From the NCBI GenBank assembly GCA_009746045.1, contig RPFO01000645.1:568185-632184 (forward strand): DNA of 64,000 nucleotides, read 5' to 3'. A model generated the notes under the pieces. That model saw nothing but the letters and a program-made list of their open reading frames with translations, ran no database searches and was not told the DNA's origin. The stretch's first letter is position 1, and every line of letters begins with the position of its first letter. A program made the position numbers and the translations under genes. Shown piece after piece: positions 8,809 through 62,289 of this stretch. The DNA is from Mesostigma viride. Its lineage: Eukaryota; Streptophyta; Mesostigmatophyceae; Mesostigmatales; Mesostigmataceae.

Positions 8809-11800
8809 TCACGGTGCCTCTGGCTTGCTCGGCGACCCCTCCAGCGGTGTCATTTCGTGCGGACCGGCAGCCGAGGTGGCCGCCACCGAGACCAGCTCCG
8901 GGTGCAGGCTGGGCGATATCGACCGCATGATGCGCCACGTGGCGTCCCACAGCGTCTCCTCGCTCGGCCCCGGCTCAGCGTCGCCGTCGGCGTCAGCGCG
9001 TGGCTCCAGCAGTAGCTCCGCCACGGCGGCAGGCACCAGCAGGGGGGTGTCCTCCTTGAGGTACCCCTGCGTGTGCATGACCAGCACCAGGTTCTTGGCC
9101 ATCTCGGGGATGTTTTCCGCCTGGACACAATGCGACGCAATGCGATGCGATGCGATCAAGATGAAGCACGTTGTTAGCTCATTGCTGAGCAAATCGGGGA
9201 TGTTCTCCAACTGCGCACGCTCAAGTCAGATCCGATCAAGGTTTGTCGTAGTTGAGCAACTCACGGATATTCTCAGCATGCGCATGAAAAAGGCCAGGTC
9301 GAACGACTATACGGTTGATTACCCTAGTTAAGCTGTACACAAGCACATGTCCGAGACACAGTGCACAGTAAACGTGATTCAAGCGCTGGTGGCACGTGGG
9401 AACGTAGGCACAAACACTCGAGGGGCAGGGGTGTGGCACACATGGGGCGGCACAGCCAATGCTAGACTATGGGTTACAAGAAGCAGCATCCACACATAGT
9501 CAGTTCACACGTCCACATGCCTAGCTAGTTGCTGTTATAATGTCCAGGATGGATAACATGGGTTGTGCTACTCTTGGCTTTGTGCCCGCAACCACCACCA
9601 TCCAGCAAAGGTGACTCTAGTTGCGGCAAATCTGGCTGAGGTACTCCTGACCCACGTACCAGCTGCTCCGAGGGCAGCGCGCGCAGGCTTTGCTCCATGC
9701 AGCTGATGGTGGACAGCCACAGGTGGCCAAACCCGGGCAGCCCACGCAGCAGCGGCGAGTAGTGCAGGAATGTCTTGGACAGCAGCGCGAGCGCCTTGCG
9801 GAGGGACGTCTCCATATCCGCGTAGTCACCGCTGCGCTTGCGGGCGGCAGAGATCAACTCCTTCACCATCGGGAAGATCATCTGTGCGTGTGGTGGTCGT
9901 GGGGGGGCCAAGAGAGGTTGTGTGCGAGACGGGTGGATGTGGGTGTGGGTTGGCATGGCGAATGGGTGTGTTCAGTGGTGGTGGTGGTGGTGGGTGGGTG
10001 GGGGAGGGGGGCAGTTTGATAGGTTGCAGGTAAAGCAACGGTAGCCAAGGATTACAAGCTTTGACTGTGGCCGCTTGCACACATGCGCACGCCAGACGAG
10101 CATCAGCATGGCAGCCACTTTCAGGCTTGAGTGGTGGATGAAAACGCCCAAGGGCAAATTATAACCTTCCTACAAACGTAGGACCATGAATCTGGACCTG
10201 TATTCCAACAATGCAAGAATCTAAATTCCAAAAAGCCACCACCACCAGTTTCAAACAGTAATTCAGAAAAAAACTGTGGCTATTAATGCATGTTGAAGAC
10301 CCCAACTCTGTTGCATGGTAAATGGGCGCCCGCGGCATGATTCATATAAGGATCCTTAATGCATGGTGTACAGGTACATCTACAGAGCCTATATGATGGC
10401 GCTAACACACGCGCACACCACAGGGCCTCACCGTTTCCAGGCACTGCGCAAAGGTGGCGCCGTTTACCGCCAGCACATCACCCAACAGCAGCGCACGCTG
10501 GAGCAATATGACCGCTTGGTGGCGCACGGCCACCCGCATCTCCAGGCACAGCCGGCAGAGCACCGCCACCAGTGCCAGCCACAGCTCTACGAGCGCTGCG
10601 GAGAGGCGGTGGATAGAATAAGCATGTTCAGAGCAGGCAGGGAAGCAATGGGGAGCATGTGGGCAAGGGCGACGCGCGACAAGCCAAGGGGCACACACAA
10701 GCGAAGGGATAAGCTGGGTAAGAACAAGCGGGGTGTTGTGTGAATACAATTTAGGTGGTGTGTGGATGGGACAGCCGCATGCAGATGTCGCACAAGCGCA
10801 GAGGATCCTACACTGTTCCGCCCAACGTCCAGCCAAAGGTATGTCTGCTTTTCTTGCTGCTTGCTTGCCAGCATGCCAGCGTGCCAGCATGCCAGCGTGC
10901 CAGCATGCCCACTTGTCAGCACGCTTGACCACTGCGCCATGATGCCATCAGCTGCTTCCCAAAAAGCATGAATAGGTTTTGTCCCCTTCCCCTTCCCAGC
11001 CACGTTGCTGCCCTACCATGCCATGCCCTGTCTAGCCACCCTGTCCAGACCATCAAAGGGGTGTGATGGGGGGGGATATCCTTCCGCTGCCTCCCCAAAA
11101 CCATCCTGGCGCGATGCCCTGGCCGACTGCGTCTGCCACCACCTCTTCACAAACTGGATTGCCTTGACAACTTATGAGTCATGGCCTGTACCTGTGACGA
11201 TCATCAATTGTCGTCAGAAAGCAACAAACGTGACAACGCTAGCTGCCCAAATCTGAGATTCCGTGGAACACAGAAAGTAAGCCAGCCTAGAAGCTACCAG
11301 CAAGGAATCGAAGATAGGACCTTTGGCATGGTTTCGCGGCTGTGGGAGTCTCCTGATCCGAAGGCATCTCACTTAACGTTTCGAAACAGCTCAACTGCAA
11401 AAAACCTCTTTACCGGAGAGGGGATCAATGCCCAGCTGATACGATGATGACAAATTCCCAGCTGCTGCTTGCCCCTGCCCGCGGCAACGCTCAACCGCCA
11501 CCCAGATGACTTACTAATTAATTATGAAAAGTGTAATACCTGCCATCCACCTGTCCCCATCCACCCGCAGGCGTCACGCATCCACGAACGCTCGGGTACC
11601 ACAAGTGAGACAACCAGTGCATGACCCATCCAACAAATGCCAAAGGCTAGCCCAGAACATGACCCATTCGAATCTTAGCCTAGGCCTACATTACCCCCCC
11701 CCCCCCCCCCCCCCACACACTCATCGATCCATTTCCTGCCAGGAATTACTGCGATCTCACAGACTACACGCTTCTCCCACCTTGCTTCTTCTTCGCATCC

Positions 11801-14800
11801 TCGGCTGCCGACGTCGGGTCCTCCCCCTCCTCGGCCCACGCGGCCAGGTTGGCGCCCATGCCCGCCAGCAGGTCCAGTGCGGCGATGCTGCGCTCCGGCC
11901 CCCCCACGCGCGACTCGGCGTAGGCGCGGGCCGTCTTGAGGCACGGCAAAAAGTTTGCTGCGCGCACGTGCGACGCGTCGCCCAGCAGGAAGAGCAGGGC
12001 TTCAAAGCCCACAGCGGCGGCTTCCGGGTGGTGCGACCCCATCTCGAGAAGTTGCAGCACGGTCTTCCACCCCAGGGGCGACTGGATGTAGGTCACGTCC
12101 ACCCTCACGAGGCGCAGCACGTCCTGCATGATGCGCTCCGCGTACACGTCCGCCACCTGGAAGGAGTGGGGGTGGGAGGGTTGAAGGGGGATGAAAGGGG
12201 GGGACAAAGGCAAGGCAAATGAGGCAGGTTCAAGTGTAGGAAATAAAGATGCTGATTCCAGGAAGAAAATAAGAGATTGCCTTCAATCCTTCGGTCCGTG
12301 TGTGTGCATGAGTGCGCGTGTGTGCGTGTGAAGCCATGGGATAGCGCGGGCCCTATGCAGCCATCTACCCCCATATCCGTTCATCATCACAAGGTGTTGA
12401 ACCCCTACTTTTGCGTCCGCGGTCAACCCTCTCCTTCCCCCCATCCAGAGCGTCTAGTTTTCCCCGTTGCGTCCAGTTTCCCCCCTCCCTACCTTTCCGC
12501 CCAACACCACCCTACCTATGCGACCAGCTTTGTTTCTGCCCCCTACTTGTGCGACCAGCTCCGCCACCCTAAATCGGCATCACCTTCCCCCTCCCTGCCC
12601 CTACCTTAGTAACCAGCTTTGTTTCTCCCCTCCCCCTCCTACCTTTGCGTCCAACTTGAGCAGCAGCTTGAGCGACTGCAACAGCTCCTCGGCCATGTCT
12701 GCCTTGTAGGGCAGCAGCCGGCGGCAGATGCGCAGCAGCGAGAAGACCGCCTTATCCACCAGCGGGCCGGGGGCGGTGGCGCTGCCGATGACGGACTCGA
12801 GCCGCTCCGTCACCAGCGGCCTGGGAGGGGAGTGGGGGGGGAGGAGGGGTGGAAGCATTAACAGTGTGCATTTGGGTGTGCAAGTGGGGGTGTTGGGGGT
12901 GTTGGGGGGGGGGGGGGGGGGGGGCGCATCAACGTGGGTTAACCAGTCGGTGGACTGTTGGAGTTTTGCCAGCTGAATTCCGAATATCAGGAGCAAAGTC
13001 AGAGCAAAACAATGGGCCGTGCCATTCACGGGTGACAGGGGAAATCACCGATTACATTCGGCCGGCCCACCACAAGTTGATCCAGCACTTACTGCCACCG
13101 AGTGCAACAACCATGCCTTCGCCCGCAAGAAGAATCCTCAGCAATACTACAATACCTGGGTTGCCCTCAGCAACACTATGATACCTGGGTTGCCCTCAGC
13201 ATCATGACACCTGGGTTACCCTTGTGCTACTCTCTTACCACCCCTTTGCACGTATACCTCCCCCACTAACTGGCATGGGACACGCAACAACAAACACCCT
13301 TTCCCACCCCTTTTCCACCCCTCCACCACAACATTCCCACTCTTCCCAGTGTGAGTTCGTACGCCGTATTATACAATACGGGGGTGGGGGGTGGGGGTGG
13401 CGGGTGGGGGGCGTACTAACGCACTAGAAATACGTCGTATCGAGTTCTCAGCGCTAATACGCCGTATAATACGTATTTTTCGCGCATTTTTTCCACAGAG
13501 CTCCGGGATTGGCGCCAGACCTAGTTTTGGCGTAGCTCACCTAGGCAGGTACGCAGCCTAAACCGTACTCGGGGAGTACGGGCCTACGGTTGGTCCCGCT
13601 TGTCATCTCTGCCTGTTCACCGCGTGGGTAAGCCATGGCACAACGAGACCGACTTGCATAAAAATAATAATTGACGTCCGCGGCCATGAGGTGTAGAAAA
13701 CTGACTGGCATGAGAGCATGGCTTGACATTTTGAAATGCAGTTTTGCAGGCATGATCCATAGGTCTTACAAAGCTTATATCCTTTGACAGGCAACGTTTG
13801 GATGTGCGCAGATATGTCTCGACCTTCTGCTCGGTGCAGCAACCTCGTTTGACCAGCAACCAGGTAGGTCGCCGTGCATGTGCTAACTGTTGCTAGGCGG
13901 GATATATGTCCATACATTTGTACGCGGATTAATTAATTAATTAGGAACATCACTCCGTTGGGAGTCAATGTAGCACATCTCCCTGAGAAGGGGCATATGG
14001 CTTTTAATACATTCTAGGCTACTTCCTGCAAGGGTGGGAATGTAAGCGACCCTTGCTCTAGGTGCACCAGGGCACCTGCACCCTCATAATCTTCACACTA
14101 TGCCCAGCTAAGGGGGAGTATGTTATGTGGGGGAAGATATGTACGCGGATATATGTGTCAAATTATTGCTGACATGATCAATTAGCTACAACGGCCAGGA
14201 AAGGCTCGCAGCTACGTCCATGAGGTGGGTATGCGGCAAGCTGCAGCAAGGAAGGTATACGTAATTAATCTGCGGTTTTGATCTGGTATGTGCTATCCTG
14301 TTCACGTGTTTATTGTATACTGTATCAAGTTCTTGGGTCGATTTCAAAGTGATCGTAGACCTATCAATTGATTAATGGTTGTCATAAAAGGAATTAGTTC
14401 GATTAGCAATCTATATAGCATGCAGTTTGGCTTTGATAGCGATTCGGGCCGTGGTGCCCACACCCCTGTAACTAGGAACTAGATAGCTAGCATCATCCAT
14501 TCCATCCCATTCCCATCCCACTGAGGACTTCTGCTCACGTGGCGCAGTCACGTGTAAATTAATTAATTGCATGCAGTGGATGAGTATCACACTTCATACA
14601 CTGAGACAACCAAGTGAGTGTCAAAGGCTACGCGCATTGCATTCACGACACGTCAATAATGAGGCATTAGTTAGCGTGTTTGAGAGGCATACCCATGGGA
14701 TAAACACCGTAGAATATGACGAGAGACTTGCCAGCATGAATAGCGGCTCGAACATGCCCTTTCTGAGCTTTTGGCATTTAGTACGCGTATAACACACAAT

Positions 14801-17800
14801 ATGGCAATACGCCGAGGTTTGGCGTATTGCCGTGCTAGCCATACTAACTCACACTGACCCTTCCCCACACTTTCCTCACCTCTTTCCCACCCCTTCCGAC
14901 CCCTGCACCACCCCCATGTACCACAGGACATGCAAGAGCAGACATCCCCATTCTATACCTCCAGCCAAGAACACGCCATAAAGGCATAAACGCATTATTC
15001 ATTCCACAAATTTCACTACACTGACGCACCAGAGCAGCTGGATGCGGTCGCGGTTGCGCAGCGTGACGGTGATCAGTAGGTCCAGGCAGAAGACCGCTGT
15101 GTCCTCGTCCTCGGGCGACTTGTGGGGCTGCCCCGCCGCCCACACGAGCGCCTTGGCCAGCTGCGAGAGGGCCTCTGCCTGCAGGAACCTGGGGGATCGG
15201 AGGCAGGGGGGGAGGAGGGGAGGGGAATTATGGAGAGGACAGTGAAGGCGCGGGAGAAGGGAACACAGGCGGTGTTGCCGTGTATGTGCAGGACAAGAGA
15301 GAGGGAAGGGCCAGCAGGGCGGGCATGCAGGCGAGGAGGGCAGGCTTAAGGTGTGCAAGGGATACGCAACGAGGGTTATCTCAACGAGGACACTGATTCA
15401 TGGGGGAGCAAGCACGCACGACACGGGGGGGCGTCTACAGGCAGAGCAGGGCAGAAAGCAACAAAGGAAAGAGGCAGAGCAACAAAGGTAGAAAGGTAAC
15501 AGATTGTGAACATAACTGGGGGGCTGGGGAGGGGGGGGGGGTCAAGCAAGAATATATACACAAGAAAAACGGGGTATAAGACAAGAGAAGGATGTTTGAG
15601 GAAAAACGCTTACGAACTATAAACAAAGGCCACACGGGGACGCGCCGCGGTGCACTAATTCTTGCTGTCGGAGGGGACACATTTAGGGCCACATGGGGTG
15701 GCGTGGCAACAAACTGCCGTTTACTTGCTGTCCGAGAAGGTCAGCACAATAGCCCACGGCTGGCAGAGACATAGCCCTCCTGTACTTGCTAACGAAGAAT
15801 ACAAACACAAGGCCGCATGGGGTGCCTTCTTACATGCTGTCGCAATTCACACAAACGGCAGAAAGATGCCCTCTTACTTGCTGTCCGAAAAGATGTCGTC
15901 GATGTGGCAGGCCTCGATGCACCGCAGCGTGCGCTGCTGTGCCGCAATCTCCAGCTCGGTGGGCGCGGCGGGGGGCGGCTCACTGTCGAGTGAGAGGAAG
16001 CTGCTAAACCGCGTGGACATGGAGCGCAGGATGGAGGAGGAGGAGGAGGTGGCCACTTTGTTCGCCGCGGAAAGGGGCAGGGGGGCGGGCGCCAGCGCAG
16101 CTGTGGCCGCCGTCATGTCTGGGGGGTAGCGGCGATGGACCCGATGACAAGATGGATGGCAGCAACGGAAACAGCGAGGGTGACATCAGGAATGGTGGCC
16201 AACACCCACGCAACGACCATGCGTCCATGGCAGAGAGAAAGATATCGCGGGTGAAGTGAGTGCAGGATGCTCACAACAAGACAGCCCTTGGCAACACGTC
16301 CTTTTTGTTTAGGAGAAAAGGTGTTATTGACTTAACTAGTCACTACTTGGGTCCTGAGTCCCCAGGCCAGAAGGCTAAGTCAGGTTTCAAAATGTGCACA
16401 CCACAAATGCCGCAATCACGGCAGACAACCTGCCGCAGCAACAGATGCTGGGGTATAGAAAAAGCTGGGGTACACAAAGCTTAGACACAAGCAATGAGTC
16501 GAAGAGCAGCAGCGACGGTGGAAGTGGCGTTGCGTGTGCGTGAGCATGCAGAAGCTGCGGAAGAACATTAATCCCGCGTGAAGGGGCCAATATTTCAGAC
16601 AGGTTTCTTTATAACTAGTGTGTCAGCAAGTGACACTACTACTTCACTTAATGAGGACACTCACTGGATGACCGCTGCTCGCCATCACCCATGCCGTCGT
16701 CCGACTCGGTGACGCTCGACGGCAGCAACCCGAGCTTATGCAGCCGCAGCACGCAGTCCAGGATCTGTGACATTGGTGTTATGTATTGTAGACCACATCC
16801 GTGTCATGGGGATGGTGAGCATGGTGAGCGTGCCCAGTGATGGCAGCACGCAAGGAGCGTGCTATACACGAGCAGTTGGGTACATCCCACCTGGGTTGCA
16901 GGAGTAATGGACGACTACCCTGTAAGACTACCAAGGAACCGTGGCCGCGAATGAGAGACCTGGCACGAAAGCTTGGCACAAAACCACCCTGTAGCGGCAT
17001 GCCAGGGTTCCAATAGGGACAAAAGCATTGCCACGACAGCCATGCTTTCTGTCTAATGTAAAAGTGGCATGCGCACACATTCAGCAGATGATATGGCAGC
17101 TATGTTGTGTGGCTATCTTGGCGTGGCCTGTCATCCACAACTTAAACCTGCAACCACACCCCACACCCCACGTCCCACTCACATTCATCGACCACTTGGC
17201 CCCCCTTTACTCACATTCCTCCACCCCGCGCGAATGTAGTCGCCGAACTTGTTGGCGATGGAGAAGACGGTGAGCGCGGCCATGCGCGCCTTGATGTCCT
17301 CCCCGAACGCGACGCATGGCTTCTGGGCGGTCGGGTTGAGCAGCGTCGTGAACTTGCAGAGCGACACCTGGCGGAGGATATGAGCCGGGGGAGGGGGCGA
17401 GGGCATGAGGCGCGGGCAAGGGAGGGGGGCAGGGATGATGGTGGTGAGGACAGCAGGGAGAGGGTGGGGACACGACTAGGGCTGGAACGGCTCGAATATG
17501 GTTGTACTGGTAACATTGGAATAACTCGAGTAAGTTTCCCAGATATCTGGGGTCATCAGGCCCTTGTCTTCTAACTGCAGTATAGATACAAACGGGCTGT
17601 GACCATACACAAAAGACTACCAATTTCTCTTCTAACATGCTTGTGTCATGTCCGCCTAAGCAGGGGCCTCACCCATCGCATCTCCCACCAGCTATTGTTC
17701 GCGGCCTAGTTCGTGCCTGGCATCCGCGACAACCCCAACCAAGCGGAGAGCCTGGCATCCGCCCCAACCCCAACCAAGAGGAGAGCCAGGCATACGCCAC

Positions 17801-20800
17801 AACCCCAGCCATGTGGGGAGCCTGGCATTCGCCACAACCGCAACCAAGTGGAGAGCCTGGCATCCGCCACAACCCCAACCAAGTGGAGAGCCTGGCATCC
17901 GCCACAACCCCAACCAAGAGGAAGGCTTGTGGTGCGGAACCACAGCACCACATCCTGGTTTTCGTACAATCATGTCAGAATACGTCCCTGACCCACGCGT
18001 GCGTTGCGGCCACATGCGTCCCCAACCCCATGCGCATGATTTGCTCGGGAGGGCATCTGTGGCACCGCGGTGGCTCACCCCTGCACCTGTGGCTTACCCC
18101 TGCACCTGGTCTAAAGTTTGGACTTCATCTGTTCAGGCGCTAACCAAGAGGTTTTGGGTGATAATGTTCGCCCACGGCAGCACCCACCACCAGGTTGTGA
18201 AGCACATTCGGTAATCATAGCGTATTCGGCCACCCACAACCCCTTTCCCGGTCTAGCGAGCACTTGTAGTGTACTGCATCACCCACCACCAGGTTGTGAA
18301 GCACGTTCGGTAATGATAGCACATTCGGCCACCCACAACCCCTTTCCCGGTCTAGCGAGCACTTGTAGTGTACTGCATCACCTACCACCAGGTTGTCAAG
18401 CACGTCCTCCATGTAGAGGTGCGCGGATATCTTGGCGACGGAGATGAAGCCGTCCAGCGCCTCGCGCAGCACCTCCTCGTCATCCGCGTGGTCAAACACT
18501 GCGTGACCATTGCAACGCCACCATGACACGTTTACGATCCTGCTGACGCTAGGGTCAAACACTTCACAATGTTTACACCGTTCACACTCACCAGTGTTCT
18601 GGCTAGGGACAAAGACTGCGCGCCGTCGAAGCATCACATCAAGCAGGTGTCATGACAGGCATGCAACATAAAGAGATCCTAACGCTGCACACCATCGTAC
18701 CGTACACAACCACATCAGGCAGGCGGGTGTGTGGGTCAGGCACAAAGCATGGCTGGGGCCAGCAACTGCCCAGAACCGCAGGTGGATGGTGCAGCACAGC
18801 AAGCCAGTCCTCTTTCGGTGGCCCTTGGCGCGGTCCAACCTTTGGAGGCGGGGTCTTGTGGGGGGTAGGCGGCAGCATAAGTGTGAGGAGTAATAGGCCC
18901 AGAGGAGGGAATGGGTACAAATTGAGGTCATGACGCACAGCAGAACACAGGACCGCACTATGCTGACCCAAACTGCCATCCTACATCCTTAGTCCTTCAC
19001 ATCTTGAGGTTGGCTTCAAGGGCAGCAATAGCCCTGCAGCCTGTGAACTCGCTAGTTACTATCGCCCCTCCCTTGCCTCCGCGCGCATGGGTTGCGAGGG
19101 CCAGCACCTACCGACGGAGATTGCGGCAATCGTGGGCCCCCACATGATCGCAAACATGTCGCGGTCGTACAGCGGCAAGCTGCTGGGCGACGCAAATGGG
19201 GTGATGTGGCGCGACCGCTTGAGCAGGTCCAGCCAGCGGCTCTGGTTCATCTCCAGCACGCTGCTGTCCCCAGACATCTTGATCTCGTTGCGGCAGATGG
19301 AGTTGTATATGTCGTCAATCATGGCGCGCGGCAGGTTCTGCCCCGCGTTGATCGCGCGGTTGTTGCGTGCAAACTCCTCCTGCGACATCTTCTTCTTGAC
19401 CTGGAGGACAGGGGGGGGAGGCGTAGAGGCGTAGGACGGGGGGGGAGAGACGCACGGCCAGGCGGGGCAGCGCGGCACAATGGGGGGAGGAGGGAAGGGA
19501 GGAGCAAAGCGCCTTCAGAAAAGTGGTTGACAAGGGGTTTCGATGATTGGCTTTGCGATAAAGGCTTTCAGAAGGGGCTATTGAAAAAGTGGATTCGAAA
19601 GAGGGCAGAGCGAGAGATGGCTTTGAGAAAGGGGATTTTCCAGAGTGGCCTTGAAGACCAACAAGGATGGACTCTTCAGAGGCTAGGATTAAGCAAAGGA
19701 GCTTGAGGGATGCGCCGTCCTAAGACAATTCACTCACAAGTTGTGCAGGTCCCACATCACCCTGCTGGCACAACTCACATGCTAATCGTCCGTGCCCCAC
19801 ACCACCCATCCACCATGCATGTGCCGCTCACCTGCGAGTTGTGCTGGTCCGTGTTGAGCATGATGACCGAGTAGGACAGCACGTATGCTGCATCTGCGTC
19901 CGCAAGAATCCCCCCGCAGTGCGCGTGGTACCGCGCCGCAAACGCCTCGAGCACCCGTCCGATCTTCTGTGCCTCACCCGGCAAACGGAACGTGTCCAGA
20001 AACGTGCGCAGCGCAGCGTCAATTGTCATGCCTTCAAAGTCAAACAGGCACGACAGCTCCCGCAGGACCGCGATGTTGAACTCGCCCGGCTCGCCCACAA
20101 ACTCGCCCAGCACGACCTTGTTGAGACCCGGCGTGTGGCGGAAGAACTTAGCGAGCGAGCGCGGGTGCTCGGTGATGGGCGTGGGCAGCAGGTTGGCCGA
20201 TTGGAGGAAAGCGAGACCTTTCTTGGGGTCGCGGTTGAAGTGGTCCACACCCATCGCTAGCCGCCGCTTCATGTAGCGCCGCCGGCGGTGGAACTCGGCC
20301 AGTCCGACCGGCTGAAAAGAAAAAGGGGGCGCACGCGGGAAGTACGCAACCAACGATGGCATGCATACGGCGGACATGCGAAACGCGGGGGTGAGGTGCA
20401 AGGGGCAAGGGCAGGTCACAGGAACCGATGCATCCGCATGGTCGCATCTCGTGAATCAGGGCCTGGGGAAGCAAGCTCACAAAAAAAGGCTGGCAAGTAG
20501 CAGACCTGGCAAAGAATAGCCCAGGCTATCTATCAAAGGCTCGAGCATTCCCAAGGGTGCTCCTTACCCTCTTATGAGGGACACCCATCTAAAAGACACC
20601 CCCTCAAGTTTGCAAGTTCTTAAGTCACTAGTAAACAGACACCCCTGCTGCCCCAGTAAGGGCCTTCATGTTTAGGCGTCCATGCCAGGCCGCATAGGAT
20701 GCAAATAATCAATCATTACAATCAATACCACGTGCAACAAACCCAACCAAACGAACCAAACCCATCCACCACGCATGCCCACTCACGTCGTCCATGTTTG

Positions 20801-23800
20801 GCACCTCCTCCCAAAAGTCCACGTAGATGGATGGATCCGCCTCGGCCGCTACATGGAAACTGGCCAGGTTGGCATCCTTGGACACGGTGGAGGCGCGCTC
20901 GGCAATGCCGTGGACGACCGCCAGCAGGCCCTCCAGCGACAGCAGGTGCACGGGGGACAGGGGGCAGTTGACGGGGAAGGAGTTCTGGGCAGGGGGGAGG
21001 GCGGGGGGGGGGGCGGCGGGGGGGGGGAGGAATGGGCATGGGCATGGAAGTGTGGGTGCTAACTAGTTAGGAGCAGGCAGTGATTTGTCTGGCAAAATAA
21101 GCTAGCGCGCGGCGCACGAGCTAGCAGGCACTTGGGGATGCCAGCATGTATGGGTGCAAATACAAAGGTTTTTATAGAACAGGTGGAACAGATAGAACCG
21201 ATGACACATCTGCGCTTGCTGTGTAGCACCCTAGTCAGAAAAAATCGCAAGCGCAGGCGAAGTATTCTGGCAATGGCAGGCTCTGCCTTTCTGGATTCAA
21301 GAAGGCACATGGCCACGAGCACCCAACTTGGACGACAAGTTGCCCATGGCATGCACAACTCACCTTGGACAGTAAATTGCACATGGCCTCGAACACGTTG
21401 CGGCAGTAGAGGTCGCAGTCAAAGTTGATGAACATGTCGGTCATGAAGCTGGGCTGGCGGCACAAGTCAACCAGCGCCTCCACGGCGGCCTCCTGCTGCT
21501 CGTAGCTCGCGTTGTGGCCCTTGCCCTCGGCCACGCGCAGCAGCGCGTACAGGAAGAAGGCCTCCAGCTGCAGCTTGAGGTGCTTGCGGTAGAAGCAGTA
21601 GAGGTGGAGCACCAGGCTGTACACGCCCGAGAGAATGGACAAGTTATTGGACAGCCCCCACTGGTGGGGCATGTGCGGCGCGACCCCAAGAGCGAGTGAG
21701 GACGGGGGAGCGGGGCCAGGGTGGATTGGTGGGAAGAGAAGCAACAGAGAGGAGTGGGGGCGGAGACATGTCAGCAGTTTGCACAAAAAGGTAGGTATGC
21801 AGGTGCAGCCTAGGTTCAGGGTGTAGTGCTTAGGGCAAGAACGGTTTGTGCGGCTCGCACAAACCAAGGCGTGTAGATGAGAGGTACCTGAACATTTCTG
21901 CCCTCCATCAAACATTCACTCATCCCCGCATCCTACGGTTGGCGGATGGTGTCTGGGTTATCCCACAACCTTCACACACGGGCATTCAACAGCAGCACAA
22001 TACTGGTAGCATCCCAGAGTGCACGCCCTGAAAATACCCCCCACTTCTCCCCCCCCAACACACACACATGGGCTGGCATCAGGGTCACTACTCGCGTGCC
22101 ACAGAGGAATCACTCAAGAGGCCGGCAGGATGCTCACAACCCCATGCCCTGCTGCATGACCGCACCAGGGAGCAAACGCGAGGTCCAGGTTGCGTACCTG
22201 CATGAGGTGCTTGAACAGCTCCCCTTGCACCAGCCCCAGCAGCTGCGGATGCCGCGAGAAGCCTGGCGTGCCCACCTCCAGAGCTGAGTTGATGAGGCCC
22301 AGGGAGAAGAGGCAGCTGTCCTCGCTGCCGCGCGCGGGGGGGCCGGGGCCCTGGGGTGCGCCGCCGGGGGCCCCGCCCGCCCCCTGCTGGTCGTCGCCCC
22401 CCAGCAGGGAGCAGAGGAAACGGAACACCTCAGCCAAGCAGGCAAGGCCATAGGGCGCGCCCAGCATGACCACCGCAGGGGCAGGGGTGGCGTTGGCTGG
22501 TGGGGTGGCCAGTAGGTTGGAGGTGGTGGCCAGGCCGGTGGCCTTGGTGCCGGTGGCCGCACTGCCGTGGTGTGTGTGGCTGCTGCTGCCACCACGAGGG
22601 GGCGTGTGCGAGGGTGTGACTTCCTTGGAGGCCGGGTTGGACTTGTGGGCGGGTTGGTGGCGCGGTTTGGACGCCGCTGGGGACACAAATGGGGGCAGGG
22701 TGGGGAGGCAGGCATGAGGGGGGGGGGGGGGGTGCGGGGGTGACTCATGGTCAGCTGATCGTCGCATGCAAGTGGTACCAGGGCAACCACCACACGCAAC
22801 AGCCAATACCAAACTGTTTGCGGAGCACAGTTATGGGGCATAGGCTTTAGGGATTGGGCTCAGGGTGGTGGGTTACGTACAATATAGATAACGTACAATC
22901 TAACTCACGTACAATATGTGCCTCGTGGCACTGCTAGCCCTATGCGGCATCGCAGGCAAGGCACGCTTTCTGCCTCTTCCCTTCTTTCTTACTCCATCCG
23001 CAACCACAGGGTGGAGCACACAGGGTGTGTTCCATCGCCTTGTGACAATCACAGTGACGGGCACTGCTCCACTCAACCACCACGGGCTTGCCCTGAATCA
23101 AAGGCTCTGGCTCCATGGTAGGCGCTAAGATTAACATTAACGACCCCACAATTAACGATCACCAGTAAATATGATACCAGTCTGCCCACACACCGGTCTC
23201 CCGTGCGCCAACTCACATGGTGGCTTGGCAGCAGCGGTCGCGTAGCTGATGGGCGGCTTGCCACTCGCCGGGTGGGCCAACGGTGCCACAATGTGCACCG
23301 GCGGCAGCACCTGACGATCCTCCGAGCCCGGTGCCGCCGTCCCCCCTTCGGCAGGCCCTTCACGCCCAGGCTCAGCGGGACTACCCGCGGGCCGAGCATC
23401 CAGACTTAGCGGCGGCATACCCCCGCGGTCGGTAGACTTCACCACACCATCCCCCGCACCCGCCCCATTACTAGCTTCCTCCCTCCCTTGCTGCGCAGGG
23501 CTGACCCTGGCCCCTGGCCCCACCCTGGCCGCTGCATCCCCTTCCACTGGTGCACCCGCATCCGAGACCCGTTCCTGCAACGCGGCCCCTGATGAGCCCT
23601 CCCCATCCCCCTGACTCCCACGACTATTGCCATCCGCCACTGCCTCTGCACCCCCGGATCCCCCCGCCCCCCCACCCCCCACGGGCCCTATCGGCTCCGC
23701 CGCGTTGAGCATAATGCTGGCGTGCTCATGGTGGCCCGGGTGGAGCTCCGCATCAATGGCTACCGCGGTGGCGGACGCGCGCAGCGACTCCTCCAGCAGC

Positions 23801-26800
23801 ACCTCATCCATCATGTCGACCCCCATGCCGCGGCCGTCGTCGCCGCCCATCAGGTACTTGGGGGACAGGGAGTCGCACGCGGCCGCGGCACGGGGCGCGT
23901 TGCGGTCGTCAGCAGCTACTGCGTGGACAGGCGCGGGGGATGCCGCCATGGCCAGCGCGTCAGAACGTGTGTGGGCGAGCCCATGGTGGGGCCGCAGGGG
24001 CTCCACGGGAAGATCCTTCACCCGGCGGTAGATGTGGCGCACCATCTCCTGCATCATGTGGCGCGACATGCGCTTGAGCATCTCTGTTGCCATGCAAGGG
24101 GGCAATACAGGGAGGGGTGGGACAGAGGCGAGGGGGGGGAAGAGGAGGGGCAGATTGAGGAAATGTCAATAAACAGTAATCAACTTAAACATTGGCTGCT
24201 AGCTATTGTTAACCCTGATGGGTGGGTAATGTGAATATTGAATAAGGACATGCGGACACTTCTGGCTTGAACAGCAGGCGAGACCTACATCGGAACCTTG
24301 GGCACGCTTTGTAACGGGGTGCTTCATATGCCTGGAAATGCACAGTCAGCGTCAAGGTGATAAAGCGCGTTACGAAACATAGCAAGTTGAGCAAGCGCGG
24401 CAGGGGGCCCCCACCTCCTTCCTTTCCGGTCCGGTGGCCGATGTTGTACGTGGTCTCCACAATGTGACACACGTCATCATCAGAAAGAAGCCGTCCCGTC
24501 GGGCACTTGAGCAGAGCCAGCAGCACCTGGAGACGGGAATGTAGGGGGGCCGGGGCAGGGAAAAACACCCGAACATGTGCGCAAAAGACAAATCCATGAA
24601 TTGATGCCAAAGAAAAAAATGGTGCCTACTCCAAACAAGGAAACTTGTTACCAGGTATCCAGGGGCATCGGCAAGGGTAAGGGGAAAAAGAACTCATTTT
24701 ATACTTGAAATCCTTGAAGTCGGCAAACGAAGACGATAGGCCGGGAAGGAATCATGGAATGGAGCTCCATGAAAGTATCCATGGATGGCAAGAGTCAAGG
24801 GGCGTCGCCTTCATGACATCGATGAACATGCACGCTACCCACCTGCAGGGTCTAACCCTGAACCCACCTGCAGGATCTTCATGAGCACCACCTCGTCTGA
24901 CGCCGTGTCGGTGGCCTCAAACAAACAGTGGGTTGTCGCGTCCGCGATCAAATGCATCACCTCCGCTGCACAGGGGGTGGTGGGGCCTGCAGGGAGGGGC
25001 ATGCCCAATAGATGCCAGGTCGTCACAAAAGGGCATGTCAGACACCTTCTGTGATGAGCTGCCGAGGACATCTGCCCCCTCGGTTCAAGTAGAATATCGT
25101 AAAGGATGTCGCGGGTACATTTGTCCAAGGCAGGCACTGGCTCCAAGTGGCTCGGTGTAGATCGTACTAGCAAACTGTGTGTAGATTGTACTAGCAAAGT
25201 GGCTGTAGATTGTACTAGCAAAGTGGGTGTAGATTGCACTAGCGAAATGGGTGTAGATTGTACCAGCAAAGTGGGTGTAAATTGTACTAGCGGTCCTCTT
25301 TGAACAGTGAACGACAACACAGGCTGCCTTGCCTAGGTACGCATACACATCCATAAACCGTTGCCTCCGTGTATTTGTCCCATCAACAGTGATAAGCCGC
25401 CCAATGCGGTTACAATCACCCATCTAGCTTCTCCAGCACAGCCTGGCAATACACCAGTAGATCATGCCTCTCGACCTTGCTTATCACTGCCATGCCCTTC
25501 AGGCAAAAGACATTTTACACTGTGCAGGACAGGGCTTGCATATCACCATTTCACAAGGCACCTGGTAACCACGAATTTTTCAAGTCTGGCAGCATGCTAC
25601 TACACACGTACACGTGTATAATAGTACACGTTTGCATTGGAGCGATTCCAACTGAAAATACCAGAGCCAAGGGAGGTAAATACGGACAAGGGAAACTACA
25701 GAGCCGCGTATGGGCTGTGAGAGCGATACTGTCAAGCAGGCGTGCATGCACCCACCAGTCAAGCACTGCAACAGGCATGCATGCAACCACCGCTCAAGCG
25801 CTGCAACAGGCGTGCATGGACCCAGCGGTAAAACGCTGCAACAGGCGTGCATGCACATGGCACCCACCGATGAGGCCGTAGGTGAGCACTTTGTACACGG
25901 CGGAGAGGGCCATGCCGGTGATGGGGCCGCTTGTTTCGGCAGAGCGGATCACCTCCAGGAAGGGGGCCAGGAAGAGGGCAGGGTCCACCTGGAAACATGG
26001 GAATGACGGTACACAGCACTTCAGGACAATAAGCAAAGGTGCATGCACGCCCCATGCATACACCAAGCGCCGTTTGTACCACAGTCCCTGCGTCCGGCAC
26101 CGATGCCTCAAGCAGTAACACCCCTTGCTTGCGCTGGTCCAACCAAAGGGGACAACTGAGCGTAATACAGTGGCCCGGCCATTATTCTATTTCATGGGGC
26201 AAGAACGTGCGCAAGTACCAGAAGCGCCCCCCCCCAGAAGTGCCTCATTACGTTTGGCACAATCTGCAGCCAGCAAAAATCGTCTAGAAGCGGCAACCCT
26301 CCCTCGCACCTCGTCAACTCCAAATGCACTAGCAACAATACAGGCAGTGCAGGCACTGAGCTCCTGCTATAATCATGTTTGCATGTGCAACGAGTCCCCT
26401 GACACAGCAAGCAGGGACAACCATGCTGATGATACACACACAGAAACGAAATGCCACAACCGTTTCCATGACATCATGCGTGCCACCCTCCATTCAAAAA
26501 AAAAAATACCATCCTCAAGTACACACCCCATCAAAACAGCAACTATCATCATCGCAAGTTCATGGACCCGAGCAGCTATACACTGCAGTTCTAGCCCTTG
26601 GAAGATCATGGCCTGACCAGCCAGACAAATGGCACCATGAAAACACCCCTCCTGGCCAGGCAGGTGATGGTAACGCACCACGACACAGCTGAACACATGA
26701 ATGTCTCCAGTCTTACGTCTGGCTGATGCATACTCTGCAATCACCGATACCACCCAGGGACTACTTCAACACATGTAGACAAACACGCAGCCCATGCCCC

Positions 26801-46613: not shown

Positions 46614-48006
46614 CCCTGGGCATTAATTAATTAATTAATAGACACGTGACGTACTGCGTCACGTGAGCATAAGTCCTCAGTGGGAGGGGAACATGGGATG
46701 GAATGGATGGTGTAAGCTATCTAGTAGGTCCTAGTTACAGGGGTGTGGGCACCGCGGCCCGAAGCGCTATGAATGCCATTATTACTTGGTCACACATTGC
46801 GGAGCCCCCACAGGCTTGGGGGTGGTCTCCTTCTTCATCACTACTTGCCATCTATCCTTGCGCACCATCTGCCTCCATATCAGTACAGACAAACCAGGAG
46901 GCTGCGGCGGGTGTGAGCCCGTCACGTCTAGTGTAGCACATGTCCATGCCGAGTCTATCACGAAAAGTCCACGGGTGACGGCCCTGCCGCGCGCGGCCGG
47001 GGGCACGCCAGGTGAGGACATATCGCCCATGGGCTGGGTGGGCTTGGTGCCAGCTAGCTAGTCTATCTGACGTGTCTACCGGCTGACGATCTGTGCGGGC
47101 CTGGTGCCCGGCTAGGCCCCTGGGCGCCTGTGCCTAATAATGTGGGAAACATAGGGCAAATCAGCGTACAAATCCTCATTACTAATGTGCAAACCAAAGG
47201 GGATGTCAAGGGCCTTGCGCAGCATCTTGGTGACGGCGCCGTCGAGTCGTTGCTCCAGTTCCTGCGTCAGTGTCCAGGTCTCGGCGCCGTAGGTCAGGAT
47301 CGTCAGAATGACGACCTTGAAGAGGTCACGCTTGACGATCCGGGCCGGTAGGGTGGGGTTGCTCCACCAGCGGCGGTGGTCATGTCCAGGTGCGCCCACG
47401 CCATGCCGATCCGTGTCGTCATGTCGTCCTCGCAGTCGGGAAGCCAACTGCCGAGCAGCTCGAAGCGGCCTGAAGGAGGGTAGTTGACCTCGGCATCGTC
47501 TAAGAGGCGGAGTGTGGGTGGGGGCCCTGCCATGCCGAGGGCCAGGGCCTCCGTTTTGGGGCTGATTTCTAGACCAGCCGCCCGAGCCTCGAGCGCCATG
47601 CAGGCAGTCCAGCCAAAGTCGGGGCAGACTCCGGCTTCTCGATGAGCGTGATGTCGTCGGCGTAAATGAGGTCAGCTAGTAAATTCTGCTTGTTAGTCGG
47701 CCCCCCTTCTCCAAGCTCGTTCGTGATCGCTAGGCCAGGGGCACGGCCTGCAATGTTAGCAAAGCGCCCCTGGGCATAGCTTGATAGATCATGGGGATGC
47801 AGGTGCCCTGGTGCACCTAGCTAGAGCAAGGGTCGTTTACATTCCCACCCTTGCAGGAAGTAGCTTAGAATGTATTATAGGCCATATGCCCCTTCTCAAG
47901 GGCTATGTGCTACATACACTCCCAACGGAGTCATGTTCCTAATTAATTAATTAATTAATTAATTAATTAATTAATTAATTAATTAATTAATTAATTAATT
48001 AATTAA
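46614..48006 (-). mobile_element. Module B...module C element carrying RT fragments
   Basis: Left end (46614-46780, complement of C): ATTAATTAATAGACACGTGA, CACGTG stem, ACTGAGG equivalent. Right end: module B 47758-47960, then about 65 bp of perfect (TTAA)n. Between them, minus strand, are LINE ORF2 pieces: YADDITLIEKPES (the polymerase YxDD motif, about 47680-47640), GLEISPKTEALALGMAGPPP, FELLGSWLPDCEDDM, DLFKVVILTILTYGAETWTL, LDGAVTKMLRKALDIP. Frames break near 47590 and 47370. Same end pair as 13930-14568. Confidence 0.65.
47941..48006. repeat. (TTAA)n array
   Basis: About 65 bp of uninterrupted AATT periodicity between the module B end and the next LINE fragment. It is the longest of the TTAATTAA runs that border every module. 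Confidence 0.95.
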
Positions 48007-48395: not shown

Positions 48396-48419
48396 CCTCC
48401 CCATGCAAGGTCCATGGGG

Positions 48420-49146: not shown

Positions 49147-56997
<7,851 letters not shown>

Positions 56998-57982: not shown

Positions 57983-60900
57983 TTTCGAGAGACCCCCGGA
58001 GTCGGCAACGGGAAGTTCAGTGACGAGGTCTGGAGCGCGTTCAAGACTTTCCTGTTGTCAGCGGAGGGGCACTACAAAGTCTCGGGGCTCGGGCGAGGCG
58101 GAGGATCCCGGTAATTAGCGCGCTAGCAATTATCCCATCCGGGGTGGCTGGCTGCTAGTACCGCAATTCTCGTGCACGGAGCCCTCAGCATTTGTGCCGA
58201 TGTCCGGCTTATGATGCTTGCTAGAGTGACCTGCTGGCTTCGCCCAGCCGAAAATGGCTGACCGAGCAGCGACCAACCCACGTGCAACCCACATTTTAGT
58301 GTCCTAGCAACCTACCAACCCACATGCCTCCCGCAGTTTAGTGTGGTGCTGGATTGGGCGTACCTTGGGGACCCGCCCGCTCTTGGCCGTCTTTTCCTGT
58401 TTTCTTTCTGGATTCGTCGCGTACTCCGATTGGATCTCCCTGAAGTCGGCGATGTGCACTGAGCCTCAATTAAAGCAAAGCAAAGTAGATTTTTTCTCCC
58501 ATGCTTCTGCCGCTCACACATGTCCAATTGGTGTGCACCGTCCTCTTCCTTGCTTGGTCTTGTTGGGCATGTGCCGCTGTCTTTAGATCATGTCGGTCAC
58601 CCGCTGATCTCCGACTGCTTGCCAGCGTGCGCCAATAACCGTTTGCCACATGGCCGTACACGTGGTGGCCAGTAGCCATTGTACTAGTTTTTGTCTTGTT
58701 GCACGTGAAATGGCTGGATGGGGCTGGTTTGCTCTGATTCACAGGGCAGCACCGTGCATGGCCTGGCGCGCAAGGAGTTCTGTCACTAGGGAACACCGCA
58801 TGTATTGCACTGCAGCCTGTTTTTCTACCAGACTCGTCTCCTTAATTCTCAGGGGCCGAGAATTAAAGTTGTTATGAGTAGAAGGCATGCCTGGGGAGAG
58901 CGAATGTCGGGCGCATGGACTTGCGTGGATGGCTCACGTGGCATGAGGGCCGTGCAGGTGGAACAACGTTTTCACGATCCAACCCCCATAGAACTGCCCT
59001 CAGCAGCGAGCAGTGGGGCAGCAAGGGGGGGAAATTTTTGGCATGCAAAGGAGGCTGGCAGTGTGCAGTCTTGTCGTGTGCTTTGTTTTGAGCCAGCCAT
59101 GTCAACCGGCATCAGCCCATGTCGGCCCATATCAGCGCGTGTTAGCCCGTGCCAGCCCGTGTTATCCAGGCCGAGGCGCCCACACCTGTACGCATTTGTC
59201 AAGAGGAAAGCATGGCCTGGCACGTGCCTCCACTATTGAGCAATATCGGGTACAGCCCGTTTGCGTGCAAGTGCGGGCGTGATGGCACGGGTGGAGCCCC
59301 CGCCTGTGTGCCAGCAAGCACTGGCTTGCGGGACTGCCGGCTGACAATATTGCTTGTATCCGGCACGAGCAGACCATGCCTCAAAATTTGTTGGCTGGGT
59401 ATGTCGCAGGCTGCGTCGGCGCGTGGGTTGACCTTTGTTGGGAGTGCCTGCAAGTCATTCCTTGCAGGCCAAGCCCCACATCCTTGGGCTCCTAGCCTTC
59501 AGCCCTCAGCCCTCGACTCCCAGCTCTTAGCCCTCATCTCTTAGCTTTCAGCCCTCACCCCTGCGCGCACAAAAACAAAGATGGCATTCCTCCTCACTCG
59601 CATGTCTCACGGTGCCGCGTTTCCCCCTGCCGGCTGGTTGGCCCCTTGCGGGCCGCGGGCGACAGCAAGACATTCATCAAGGTGCTCCACGAGGAAGGCC
59701 CGCCCGCCCTGCAGCGGCTCAGCCCCCAGGACCTGAACGAGCTCATCTCGCTGTCGGTGGCCAAGAACTGGCTGAGTGAGCAGTATGACTGGGGCGGTGT
59801 TTGCGTGCACATATCAGAGTCTATCGTCCAAGGGAACGGGGGGTGGGTACCCGCGTCACTGGGGGCATCTGCCAGCCAACCGCCGACACCGGCGACGACA
59901 CCCTCTGGACATTGGCCACCGCACATGCCAGGGGTGGCGGGGTCCTCACCCCGCACGCCCCTGCCGAGCTACATGGACGTGCCACCTGTCACGATGCCGC
60001 GGCTGATCAAGGTCCAGGTGGACAAGATGAAGGACTGGCTGGAATGGACGGTGGAGAAGGCGGGCAGCGGGGGCTACCCGCTGAGCCGGGTGCCCATCGA
60101 CTACAAGCAGCGGTTCGACGAGAAGCTCGACTACAAGTCGATCGGTGTGCGGCAGCTCAAGGACCTCGTGGGATACATGTCCGACGTGGTCACTCTATCA
60201 GTCGTTGCGGAGGTACCCACGCTATTCCACAAGACCAAGAAGCTGCCCGTCAAGCGGGACATCTCCCCACCCAAGAAGCCGGTGCCCACCGGGTGGGGAA
60301 CGCCAGCGAGTGCCAACCCAGCCCCGAATCCTTGGGCCAACGTGCCCCTAGGGGGCGCCAATGGGTCAACCCCGAGAGGCTCGGACCGCGGCAGCACGGG
60401 CACCCCCATGGGGGCGTCAAGCACAGGGACACCTGGCAGCCGGCCGGGCCCCGCCGGGCCCAGGCGCGTGGCGACCGGATGGGAGAGCGATGACTCGTCG
60501 GGGCATGACTTCATCCCCACGGTATGGGACTGTGCGGCGCGGCCCAAGCCGTCCGTGACCCCCTGCGCTGAGCCCTACGTGCGCAAGCTGCGGCGGTGGC
60601 TCCCGAAAGCGATCAAGCGCGCGGGCAAGGACGGCTTCACGATGAGCGGCATACCCATGGCGTACGCCACCGAGTTTGGGGAGCCGCTGGACTTGGACAA
60701 GGCGGGGGTGAAGAAGCTGGCGGAAATTGTGGACATGGTGGGCGACCTGTTCGACAAGGTGGGTGGCAGGGTTGTTTGACAAGGTGGGCGGGATGGGGTG
60801 GCAGATTTGTTTGATGAGGTGGGCGAGGTAGGGTGGCAGATTTGTTTGACGAGGTGGGCGGGGTGGGCTGGAAGATTTGTTTAACAAGTTGGGTGGGGTG

Positions 60901-62289
60901 GGGTGGCGGATTGGTTAAACAAGTTGGGTGGGGTGGGGTGGCAGAGTTGTTTGACAAGACGGGCCGGGTGGGGTGGCCAATTTGTTTGACAAGGTATGTG
61001 TTTTTATGGCAAGTTTTGTCGGACCAAAGGCAGGTGTGTGGGCATTGATGTTGTTGAAGTGGAGCGAGCAAAGCCAAGGGTGCGGCATCAGAGTGCGTAT
61101 GGTGGCTTGGCACCGGGCTGCTACCCATTTGTGTTGCAAGTGGGAGCCTTTTGTTTACGAGTCTCTGGCGGTTTTAAGGAGGTGCATGTCCCACCCCATC
61201 ATCCGCACATGTCATATCCTGTGAAGCAGTGCGCATCTCACCGATGTGGGGAGCATCCCACTCATGAATCGCCGTGTGGGGCACATCCCACTCACAATAA
61301 GCCGTGTGGGGCACATCCCACTCACAATGAGCCGTGTGGTGTGCTGCCCCTCTGGTTTGCACGTGCAGGTGTTTGAGAAAGGTCACTACGTGCTGCGGTT
61401 GCCAGAGAAACCGGCGCCCAGCAAGCCGCGGCCACCGCGGCCGGTCGAACCGGGGGAGGTGACCGTGCTCAATCGCGCCCCACCACAGCCGCCGCAGCCA
61501 TCCTCAGCAAGGAGCGGCGCAGGGCGCGGCCTGGGTGCTGGTGGCAGCATCGGGCCCATGCCCGAGGCCACGCTGGCGCTGCGGGAGGAGCTGGTTGACA
61601 ACGTGGCAGCTCTCCTGCGCATCCACATGGCGGGGGTGGACCCCCAGCGGGGCCGCAAGGTGGCGGACTTGGAGCGCATTTACCAAGACGAGATGGGGAA
61701 GCCGCTAGATTATGCGGCTGCAGGGTTTGGCAGCGTTATCGATCTTCTGGGGGAGGACCAGATCGCAGAGGTGTGCCGCACGGAGCCCCGTCCCTGGGGG
61801 GGTGGCATCATGTACCCTGTGACAGGTGACAGCAGGGCAGCTGCGGTGCGTGATGAGCCCAGGAGCGGCGGGGGAGGGTCGGGGGGGGTGACTCCAGCAG
61901 CATCACCCATGGCACCAGGGCCGGCAGGGAATGGTGGGTGCAACTCTGCAGGTGGCCCGAATGGGTATGGCCTGAATAGGTTTGCCCAAAATGGCTATGC
62001 CCAACATTCCTATGGCCAAAATGGCCATGCCCAAAATGCTGCCCCGGATGGCTATGGCGCGCATGGCTATGCCCAAAATGGCCGTCAGCAGTCGGTACAA
62101 ACACAGATTCTACCGGCCAGCGCGGCCCTACCCAATAAGCCTGTCGCTTGGACAGGCAAGCTTAATGGGCCGGGCCTGGACCCGCCTGGAGAGGAGGCAC
62201 CCACGCAACCGTGGGGGCAGTGGCAACCAACAGGCCATGGTGCGGTGGAGGACGAGGTTCAGCTTGCGGATCTGCTTCTGCATGACTGA
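57983..62289 (+). CDS. Multi-LOTUS (OST-HTH) domain protein, 5' end incomplete
   Basis: Exons 57983-58110, 59666-60758 and 61369-62289 join in phase (about 713 aa without the missing first exon). There are four LOTUS-like winged-helix units: residues about 11-80 (VWSAFKTFLLSAEGHYKVSG, FIKVLHEEG), 150-230 (LEWTVEKAGSGGYPLSRVPI, GVRQLKDLVGYMSDVV), 343-425 (RRWLPKAIKRAGKDGFTMSG, LAEIVDMVGDLFDKV then FEKGHYVLRLP) and 476-545 (LALREELVDNVAALLRIHMA, GFGSVIDLLGEDQIAE). Pro/Gly-rich linkers separate them. LOTUS domains bind RNA (G-quadruplex) or DEAD-box helicases in RNA-regulating proteins such as MARF1; no nuclease domain is seen here. The C-terminus is Asn/Gly/Tyr/Gln-rich with NGYAQ repeats. An alternative ending is possible: a donor at 61771 and a GAG acceptor at 62290 would remove the NGYAQ region and end in ERFIKVYLL at 62371, a better LOTUS-like finish. 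Confidence 0.8.
60748..61000. repeat. About 36-bp minisatellite made from the exon donor
   Basis: The exon end TTCGACAAG then GTGGGTGGCAGG is followed by seven diverged units of TTTGACAAG-GTGGGC-GGGTGGGGTGGCAGA type through 61000. The last unit reads GACAAG then GTATGT, a near-consensus donor. Confidence 0.85.
61236..61346. repeat. 30-bp minisatellite (about 4 copies)
   Basis: Unit GTGTGGGGCACATCCCACTC plus ACAATGAGCC, intronic, just before the last LOTUS exon. Confidence 0.9.

Follow-up and report, generated by a model that had tools for sequence, protein, structure and literature searches.

Direct copies of exon ends and splice donors within the adjoining introns of Mesostigma viride genes

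Results

Four genes carry copies of their own exon ends

The window, a 64,000-nucleotide stretch of the Mesostigma viride genome (contig RPFO01000645.1, positions 568,185 to 632,184), holds an ARF-GEF, a STICHEL-like, a GH13 and a LOTUS gene, for which we modelled 34 introns (18, 9, 4 and 3 respectively, with ARF-GEF intron 1 left out) in frames that stay open through every internal exon. We use the term echo for a direct copy of an exon end and its donor lying further into its own intron. All the cases that the original prediction had listed as clear were found in place, namely ARF-GEF exons 3, 7, 9, 11, 14 and 16, STICHEL-like exons 6 and 7, GH13 exon 2, the LOTUS exon and, on the acceptor side, ARF-GEF exon 20 (Table 1). 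Its weaker cases fared less well: ARF-GEF exon 12 is borderline (p = 0.013, and outside the nine donors at p ≤ 0.01 in a repeat) and ARF-GEF exon 2 is not significant (p = 0.25). The array at ARF-GEF exon 11 begins 20–22 nt within the exon. A solved Gea2 protein aligns across each of the ARF-GEF boundaries E3/E4, E7/E8, E9/E10 and E11/E12, indicating that these exon ends are ancestral and that the first donor is the one that fits.

Table 1. Splice junctions of the window with copies in the adjoining intron
Junction	Copies	Positions	Strand
ARF-GEF exon 3 end and donor 24867	one copy, lag 25	24837..24878	-
ARF-GEF exon 7 donor 21363	lags 37, 74	21271..21396	-
ARF-GEF exon 9 donor 19831	lags 53, 98; long-lag spacer unduplicated	19730..19867	-
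ARF-GEF exon 11 donor 18385	true tandem array, 99-nt unit, two further copies	18177..18405	-
ARF-GEF exon 12 donor 17214	single borderline copy, lag 32	17177..17227	-
ARF-GEF exon 14 donor 15877	four decayed copies, lags 44, 92, 153, 216	15649..15894	-
ARF-GEF exon 16 donor 12642	six decayed copies, lags 38, 96, 127, 150, 178, 234	12402..12657	-
ARF-GEF exon 20 acceptor (first exon base 9120)	two upstream exon-start copies, 9161-9218 and 9227-9284	9076..9284	-
STICHEL-like exon 6 donor 33985	lags 59, 176	33957..34160	+
STICHEL-like exon 7 donor 34905	exon-end copy, lag 121, spacer unduplicated	34878..35020	+
GH13 exon 2 donor 54122	lag 90, running into (GGGT)n tract	54013..54142	-
LOTUS exon donor 60759	opens 25- to 35-nt array, seven further copies	60737..60995	+

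Echoes are frequent at donors and replicate outside the window

Our base test compared the final 30 exon bases with the initial 300 intron bases against dinucleotide shuffles (p ≤ 0.01), and an alternative query joined 25 exon bases to 8 intron bases. The exon-only query was significant at 8 of the 34 window donors and the alternative at 9, and across repeats and other shuffles 9–11 donors had a direct copy in their own intron, where 0.3 are expected. At 10 donors (7 with the exon-only query) the own intron beat each of the 33 others. Window controls remained at background: inverted copies were found at 0/34 donors in one run and 1/34 in another, copies at the far end of the own intron in 0/17 and copies of the next exon's start in 0/34. 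A comparison with exon interiors had been proposed as a check, and exon ends proved far commoner as sources; 33-mers starting at least 50 bases inside the exon matched 0 or 1 of 26–34 per offset.

A second sample comprised 130 introns of other genes outside the window in the same 440-Mb genome (164 introns in total), drawn from searches for kinesin, dynein, SNF2, HSP70 and kinase families. We used 246 of 423 family matches (kinesin 114/129, dynein 36/44, SNF2 34/64, HSP70 44/51, kinase 18/135) and, in a later round, 48 of 68; matches dropped by eye apparently lacked a partner exon, or lay on contig C622 or two similar short contigs. No acceptable splice model was found for 8 of 112 and then 1 of 28 exon pairs, and one intron was removed for similarity to another. 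A direct copy was present in 44 of these 130 fresh introns and an inverted copy in 3, so that overall 55 of 164 donors, about one in three, have a direct copy (45/164 with exon-only queries) and 4/164 an inverted one, with about 2 expected by chance. Controls on 103 fresh introns ran slightly above the 1% expected (inverted 2/103, far end 2/46, next exon's start 4/103). A donor-proximal permutation test gave 11 introns against 5.2 in the window (p = 0.003) and a weaker result in the fresh introns (29 against 21.8, p = 0.03). Splice-junction echoes are therefore real, confirmed in the window and replicated beyond it, and they are as predicted too frequent for chance, local, direct and spread over unrelated genes. 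A search of viral_contigs and genome_contigs for relatives found none.

Acceptors also carry direct copies, about half as often as donors (26/164 versus 55/164, p = 0.0003), and inverted acceptor copies were absent (0/164). The nearly donor-only picture of the original prediction reflected a small sample: acceptor echoes number 2/34 in the window, yet 24/130 in the fresh introns.

Copies begin close to the exon end

Duplication arrays with their spacers cover 23% of intron bases. Their starts cluster in the last 40 exon bases, where 36 arrays begin at about five times the intron density, and only 3 begin at exon bases -80 to -40. Matches by exonic offset in the 103 fresh introns numbered 0/102 at -120, 1/103 at -80, 3 at -60, 16 at -40 and 31 at -25, and only 1–2 duplication sources were wholly exonic, versus 18–22 that spanned the donor. 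Lags at donors peak at 75–125 nt (30/55), and lags in intron interiors at 25–50.

Some copies stand head to tail without unrelated sequence between them (E11, L2 and E7 and, among the fresh loci, for example L118 and L124), and at others the spacer is not detectably duplicated (L092, L103, L115, L054 and S7, as well as the long-lag copy of E9). Among the latter, the copies match at 100% over 40 nt at L115 and at 93% over 58 nt at L092 and L103; unduplicated spacers of 21–107 nt between near-identical copies amount to about ten cases. The donor-spanning duplicated segments (18 in number) vary in length from 24 to 69 nt. Echoes are direct only, with inverted copies near chance level, as for tandem arrays.

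Tandem high-identity duplicates are evenly spread (8/163 at the donor point, 7.6–10.5% at intron points). Non-tandem copies were found at 17/163 donors versus 0.3–2.3% of intron points, and non-tandem first copies at 12.2% versus 0.9%. Divergence of 10–30% was seen in 21 of 38 donor-spanning first copies; young ones number 13 versus 3.6 expected after matching for age and skew (p = 0.0001). We also simulated uniform duplication with a simple model whose unit lengths came from the observed lags; the rate at donors was then 0.55–2.1 times that in mid-intron. The observed 9/34 was unlikely in five of six settings (P 3e-7 to 0.004) and compatible with the one at the highest duplication rate (P 0.06), so that, this setting excepted, the simulations disfavour uniform duplication as the whole story.

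Intron length, G-skew and donor-like copies

Echoes had been proposed to lengthen introns, but we found no difference in length, either over all introns (median 657 nt with echoes versus 624 for others, p = 0.82) or in the window (610 versus 870, p = 0.21). Over their initial 150 bases introns are rich in G (skew +0.22 in the window), the duplication rate reaches 44% at intron positions where skew exceeds 0.4, and G-skew suffices to explain the whole excess within the first 33 intron bases (31 observed, 32.5 expected). As a cause, G-skew explains this first-intron-base excess but fails both for the first-copy excess and for which introns have echoes, there being no difference in 5' skew between echo and non-echo introns (p = 0.25 in the window, p = 0.23 in the 164 introns).

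The anticipated decoy donors are present as sequence, in that 18 of 28 window echoes equal or exceed the score of the weakest authentic donor, against a background of 7%. GT is retained in 43 of 53 best copies with the junction inside the alignment, a count that junction-anchored alignments favour. Identity per intron in window echoes averages 0.68 for the exon part, 0.75 for the donor and 0.40 for intron positions +7 to +18; conservation of the copied donor site does not exceed that of the exon part copied with it (p = 0.40), giving no sign of selection on echo donors. The distances of GT-keeping copies show no clear frame preference (15, 17, 11).

Discussion

Intron-wide duplication and a frozen exon copy

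The explanation that we consider best, and favour with modest confidence, combines short-range direct duplications throughout introns with an exon copy held in place by selection. Short direct duplications arise all along introns, potentially by break repair or slippage, some of them tandem and some with about 20–110 unrelated bases between the copies. An event that starts a few tens of bases or less before the exon's end and crosses the donor would create a second junction, 25–215 bases inside the intron. Splicing would still use the first donor, as the open frames and protein conservation suggest, and the event would be nearly neutral and retained. A duplication wholly within the exon would alter the protein and be lost. 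Because selection would freeze the exon copy, old events would stay visible at exon edges, for about twice the time over which a pair of intron copies can be recognised. Events crossing the acceptor may be less tolerated, perhaps since splicing takes the first AG that follows the branch point. The original prediction of a process that starts at exon-intron borders thus holds in part: array starts do cluster in the last 40 exon bases, but for much of the signal such a process is unneeded because intron-wide duplications and a selected exon copy suffice.

Several observations fit this explanation poorly. Exon conservation would give at most an approximately twofold enrichment, and array starts show about fivefold; young first copies at donors exceed the expectation matched for age and skew; units of about 100 nt would be expected to extend frequently beyond the last 40 exon bases, and only 3 arrays begin at -80 to -40; and the lags at donors differ from those in intron interiors.

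Alternative explanations

The most serious competitor, which we regard as distinctly less probable and put forward tentatively, is that donors are duplication hot spots. Sequence reaching from the last 40 exon bases across the donor would be copied again, in direct orientation, some 100 bases further into the intron, several times more commonly than other intron sequence, through DNA damage or repair linked to transcription or splicing at the 5' splice site. A co-transcriptional structure (an R-loop, a paused polymerase or U1-bound nascent RNA) could provoke breaks or template switching just downstream, with repair re-copying the junction. The clustering of array starts, the non-tandem and first-copy excess at donors, the scarcity of wholly exonic sources, the G-rich start of introns and the high duplication rate at strongly skewed intron positions all point this way, and the donor excess that survives matching for age and skew keeps border-starting duplication in contention. 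Against such targeting, 5' skew does not differ between introns with and without echoes, acceptors carry copies as well, the age-matched strict non-tandem excess comes from 4 donors (identity at least 0.92), and selection would remove wholly exonic tandem events anyway.

That extra donors are kept because they are useful, a cluster of donor-like sites recruiting U1 or buffering splicing, is improbable. GT retention and the donor scores of window echoes speak for it, but copied donors are not significantly better conserved than copied exon parts, no clear frame preference is seen, and the GT count is favoured by the alignment itself.

Less likely still is that a mobile or introner-like element entered at the junction and produced a long target-site duplication, in which case the spacer would be the element. 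The unduplicated spacers could be read in this way, and by raw score (at least 85) four spacer pairs align mutually. However, spacers matched essentially their own loci: among the analysed loci each hit only the place it came from and overlapping or haplotype versions of that place, the sole exception being a 25-nt match between two kinesin loci, and the L103 stretch occurs at one place in the genome (a genome-wide search of this single locus). We thus saw neither a spacer family among the analysed loci nor a short fixed-length target duplication, and segments of 24–69 nt would be very long and variable for one.

Chance, composition or assembly error is refuted as the main account: G-rich flanks do raise the match rate, but the signal persists with exon-only queries and against dinucleotide shuffles, other introns and the inverted, far-end and next-exon controls, shuffled introns yield zero donor-spanning segments, and assembly error does not produce the 10–30% divergence of first copies, the L092 stretch moreover showing no difference on the near-identical contig C622 (99.9%), which may be the other haplotype or derive from the same reads.

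Relation to known systems

A minisatellite in a single interferon-induced gene reportedly has a splice donor within its repeat unit. Echoes resemble it in copying donor sequence, but affect roughly one in three of the donors studied and mostly consist of few decayed copies; a usable donor in the unit would define that type, and 18/28 window echoes contain a putative donor by score. Human introns are also said to have come from tandem arrays (Zhuo et al. 2007, by title), with tandem arrays and introns in common on that basis.

In Chlamydomonas reinhardtii and Volvox carteri, tandem repeats are concentrated close to the borders between introns and exons (PMC3887541), so that the earlier statement that no named phenomenon matches was too strong. 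These are likewise repeat-rich green-algal introns with more repeats toward their ends, described for units of 1–50 bp on a normalised intron scale; the passages of that study available to us make no mention of an exon-end first unit, unrelated spacers or a donor-acceptor difference, all of which are present here. Intron gain through tandem genomic duplication of AGGT-bearing exon segments (reviewed in PMC3443670) similarly involves local direct duplication of splice-site sequence. In that mechanism the duplicates form both ends of a newly created intron, whereas here the copy sits inside an existing one. The signature of such gain, an exon-end copy at the 3' end and a next-exon copy at the 5' end, is absent from the window (0/17 and 0/34), with 2/46 and 4/103 in the fresh introns. 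Among the matches listed in the open-licence literature, no paper dealt with junction-spanning echoes. While junction-near tandem repeats are already known, the form that spans the junction looks new, as do its frequency and the limit on its reach into the exon.

Significance

If a third of donors carry diluted copies of themselves, introns would act as a recorder of local duplication for which the exon is an undamaged reference, and echoes would offer a simple measure of duplication rates and ages. They would also provide a natural set of competing donors for the study of splice-site choice, and repeated donors are a warning for gene finders and variant callers. Should the donor excess prove mutational, it would link splicing or transcription to genome instability.

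Echoes at exon ends in the window

Gene models for ARF-GEF, STICHEL-like, GH13 and LOTUS were made by hand, with frames open across every internal exon. Pfam backs these names with Sec7 and HUS domains, a DNA polymerase III delta-subunit-type domain, an alpha-amylase domain and an OST-HTH domain, respectively; of ten stretches scanned, two (one GH13 exon, one LOTUS exon) gave no match. The solved Gea2 sequence aligns through the ARF-GEF junctions of exons E3/E4, E7/E8, E9/E10 and E11/E12, which indicates that the coding sequence at those exon ends is old and that the exon-nearest donor is the one keeping the protein intact.

Direct copies (echoes) of the last 30 exon bases were found within the first 300 intron bases of 8/34 introns at p ≤ 0.01 and 10/34 at p ≤ 0.05. 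A query of 25 exon and eight intron bases raised these counts to 9/34 and 12/34, and other shuffles gave 9, 10 or 11 of 34. The signal was highest (29-32%) for queries beginning 20-25 bases upstream of the donor and fell to 0-3% from 45 bases inwards of the exon. Neither inverted copies of the exon end nor copies of the next exon's start occurred in the 34 window introns, nor did exon-end copies at the far end of 17. The clear cases of the original prediction were upheld; of its weaker ones, ARF-GEF E12 lies at the borderline and E2 does not reach significance. Window introns are also strongly asymmetric between strands, being G-rich in their first 150 nt (skew +0.22) and C-rich in their last 150 nt (-0.28).

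Other features of the window

The inverted repeat in GH13 resembles a fold-back element. The coding-exon repeats have units of 15, 18 and 12 nt, and therefore multiple-of-three duplications survive in proteins too. Pfam gave zero matches for the four unnamed open frames, which may be retroelement pieces and a zinc-finger-like frame.

Repeats and open frames in the window
Feature	Position	Strand	Detail
Large inverted repeat	50177-50642 and 51061-51526		GH13 intron 4; arms 466 nt, 94% complementary, 418 nt apart
Hydroxyproline O-arabinosyltransferase match	1422-3242	+	607-codon open frame, Pfam HPAT
Very long simple repeat (CCAT)n	63398-64000		
Very long simple repeat (GA)n	55170-55832		GH13 intron
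Very long simple repeat (CACC)n	53631-54033		GH13 intron
In-frame tandem repeat	61953-62082		15-nt unit, coding exon
In-frame tandem repeat	40049-40127		18-nt unit, coding exon
In-frame tandem repeat	37818-37857		12-nt unit, coding exon
Open frame	4526-5029	-	
Open frame	7561-8079	-	
Open frame	47112-47675	-	
Open frame	43465-44078	+	

Replication across the genome

Gene content, base composition and the dynein and kinesin genes suggest that the source is a green alga. Fresh introns were drawn from its 440-Mb genome (2243 contigs) using kinesin, dynein (two domains), SNF2, HSP70, protein kinase and P-type ATPase families, by pairing nearby exon matches whose profile positions adjoin. Of 491 family matches 294 entered; those seeming to have no partner exon, and three short contigs, were left out by eye. 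Splice sites were set by frame, profile continuity and a window-derived splice-site matrix, echoes playing no part. Introns were obtained from 104/112 exon pairs and then 27/28 further pairs, one being removed for likeness to another.

The first 103 introns alone gave donor echoes in 29 and acceptor copies in 16 (controls: inverted 2/103, next exon's start 4/103, far end 2/46). Across all 130, donors had direct copies in 44 (37 with an exon-only query) and inverted copies in 3, and acceptors had 24 and 0. With the window included (164 introns), direct copies stood at 55 donors versus 26 acceptors (p = 0.0003); the mean per-intron rate at interior positions was 10.9%.

Tandem and non-tandem copies

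An ungapped scan over every lag found 117 high-identity direct duplicates of two kinds. The 67 tandem ones are evenly spread (covering 4.9% of donors, compared with 7.6-10.5% of intron points), and the 50 non-tandem ones concentrate at junctions: 18 span donors, 6 span acceptors, 23 are intron-interior and 1 has a wholly exonic source. Ten of the 18 are clear, after removal of three in complex multi-copy arrays (L062, 1160-nt intron; L076, 860-nt intron; L077), four for which spacer tests speak against a non-tandem reading and one with an 8-nt spacer. The non-tandem form is well illustrated by L115 (40 bases, identical) and by L092 and L103 (58 bases, 93%). A second scan, with a lower score cut-off and a spacer that must not itself be duplicated, gave 77 non-tandem segments (22 donor-spanning, 11 acceptor-spanning, 41 interior, 2 donor-side and 1 acceptor-side exonic) and zero junction segments in shuffled introns. 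Donor copies most often lie 75-125 bases away (30/55), interior copies 25-50.

In the window the ungapped scan, more stringent than the first test, finds just 4 arrays that cross a donor (E7, E11, GH13 exon H2 and STICHEL-like exon S3, the last missed by the first test), so that duplicate, first-copy and array counts rest mainly on fresh introns. Three fresh tandem arrays (L124, L118, L121; 94-99% identity; lags 78, 99 and 51 nt) start 17-29 nt inside the exon and are candidates for between-strain polymorphism.

Function, intron length and precedents

GT is present in 43/53 copies and, on sequence score, 18/28 window copies would pass for real donors. The donor within a copy is conserved no better than the copied exon part, and copy distances have no clear frame preference; we saw no evidence of function in these comparisons. 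Echo introns are not longer than others, contrary to the proposal that echoes lengthen them.

In Chlamydomonas reinhardtii and Volvox carteri, tandem repeats are enriched close to intron-exon borders (PMC3887541). A human minisatellite reportedly carries multiple splice donors, and human introns derived from tandem arrays have reportedly been described. Among the matches listed in the open-licence literature, no paper was on junction-spanning echoes. A review (PMC3443670) counts tandem genomic duplication among the ways in which new introns arise, and another paper (PMC4039745) ties some C. elegans minisatellites to alternative splicing.

Proposed general duplication and a probable donor-linked residue

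Because the exon copy would be unable to decay, donor echoes would be expected to stay visible for roughly double the time that pairs of intron copies do. Counting first copies only, 38/164 donors lie inside one versus 3.3% of intron points; matched for age (identity 0.92 at donors, 0.84 in interiors) and G-skew, 13 donors remain versus 3.6 expected (p = 0.0001). Merged arrays beginning in the last 40 exon bases number 36, about five times the intron density, with only 3 in the preceding 40, and 39 arrays cross donors versus 17 crossing acceptors (p = 0.005). Against this, the excess over the first 33 intron bases is gone once skew is allowed for (31 observed versus 32.5 expected), and the strict age-matched non-tandem donor excess rests on 4 donors. 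Selection could account for the limit near 40 exon bases, since longer copied exon context may let a second donor compete.

Weighing these results, we hold that a general duplication process with a frozen exon reference accounts for much of the echo signal. The suggestion that duplication begins at exon borders may stand in part, in the donor excess and the fivefold array starts: beyond general duplication, a further donor-linked residue, whatever its cause, is likely.
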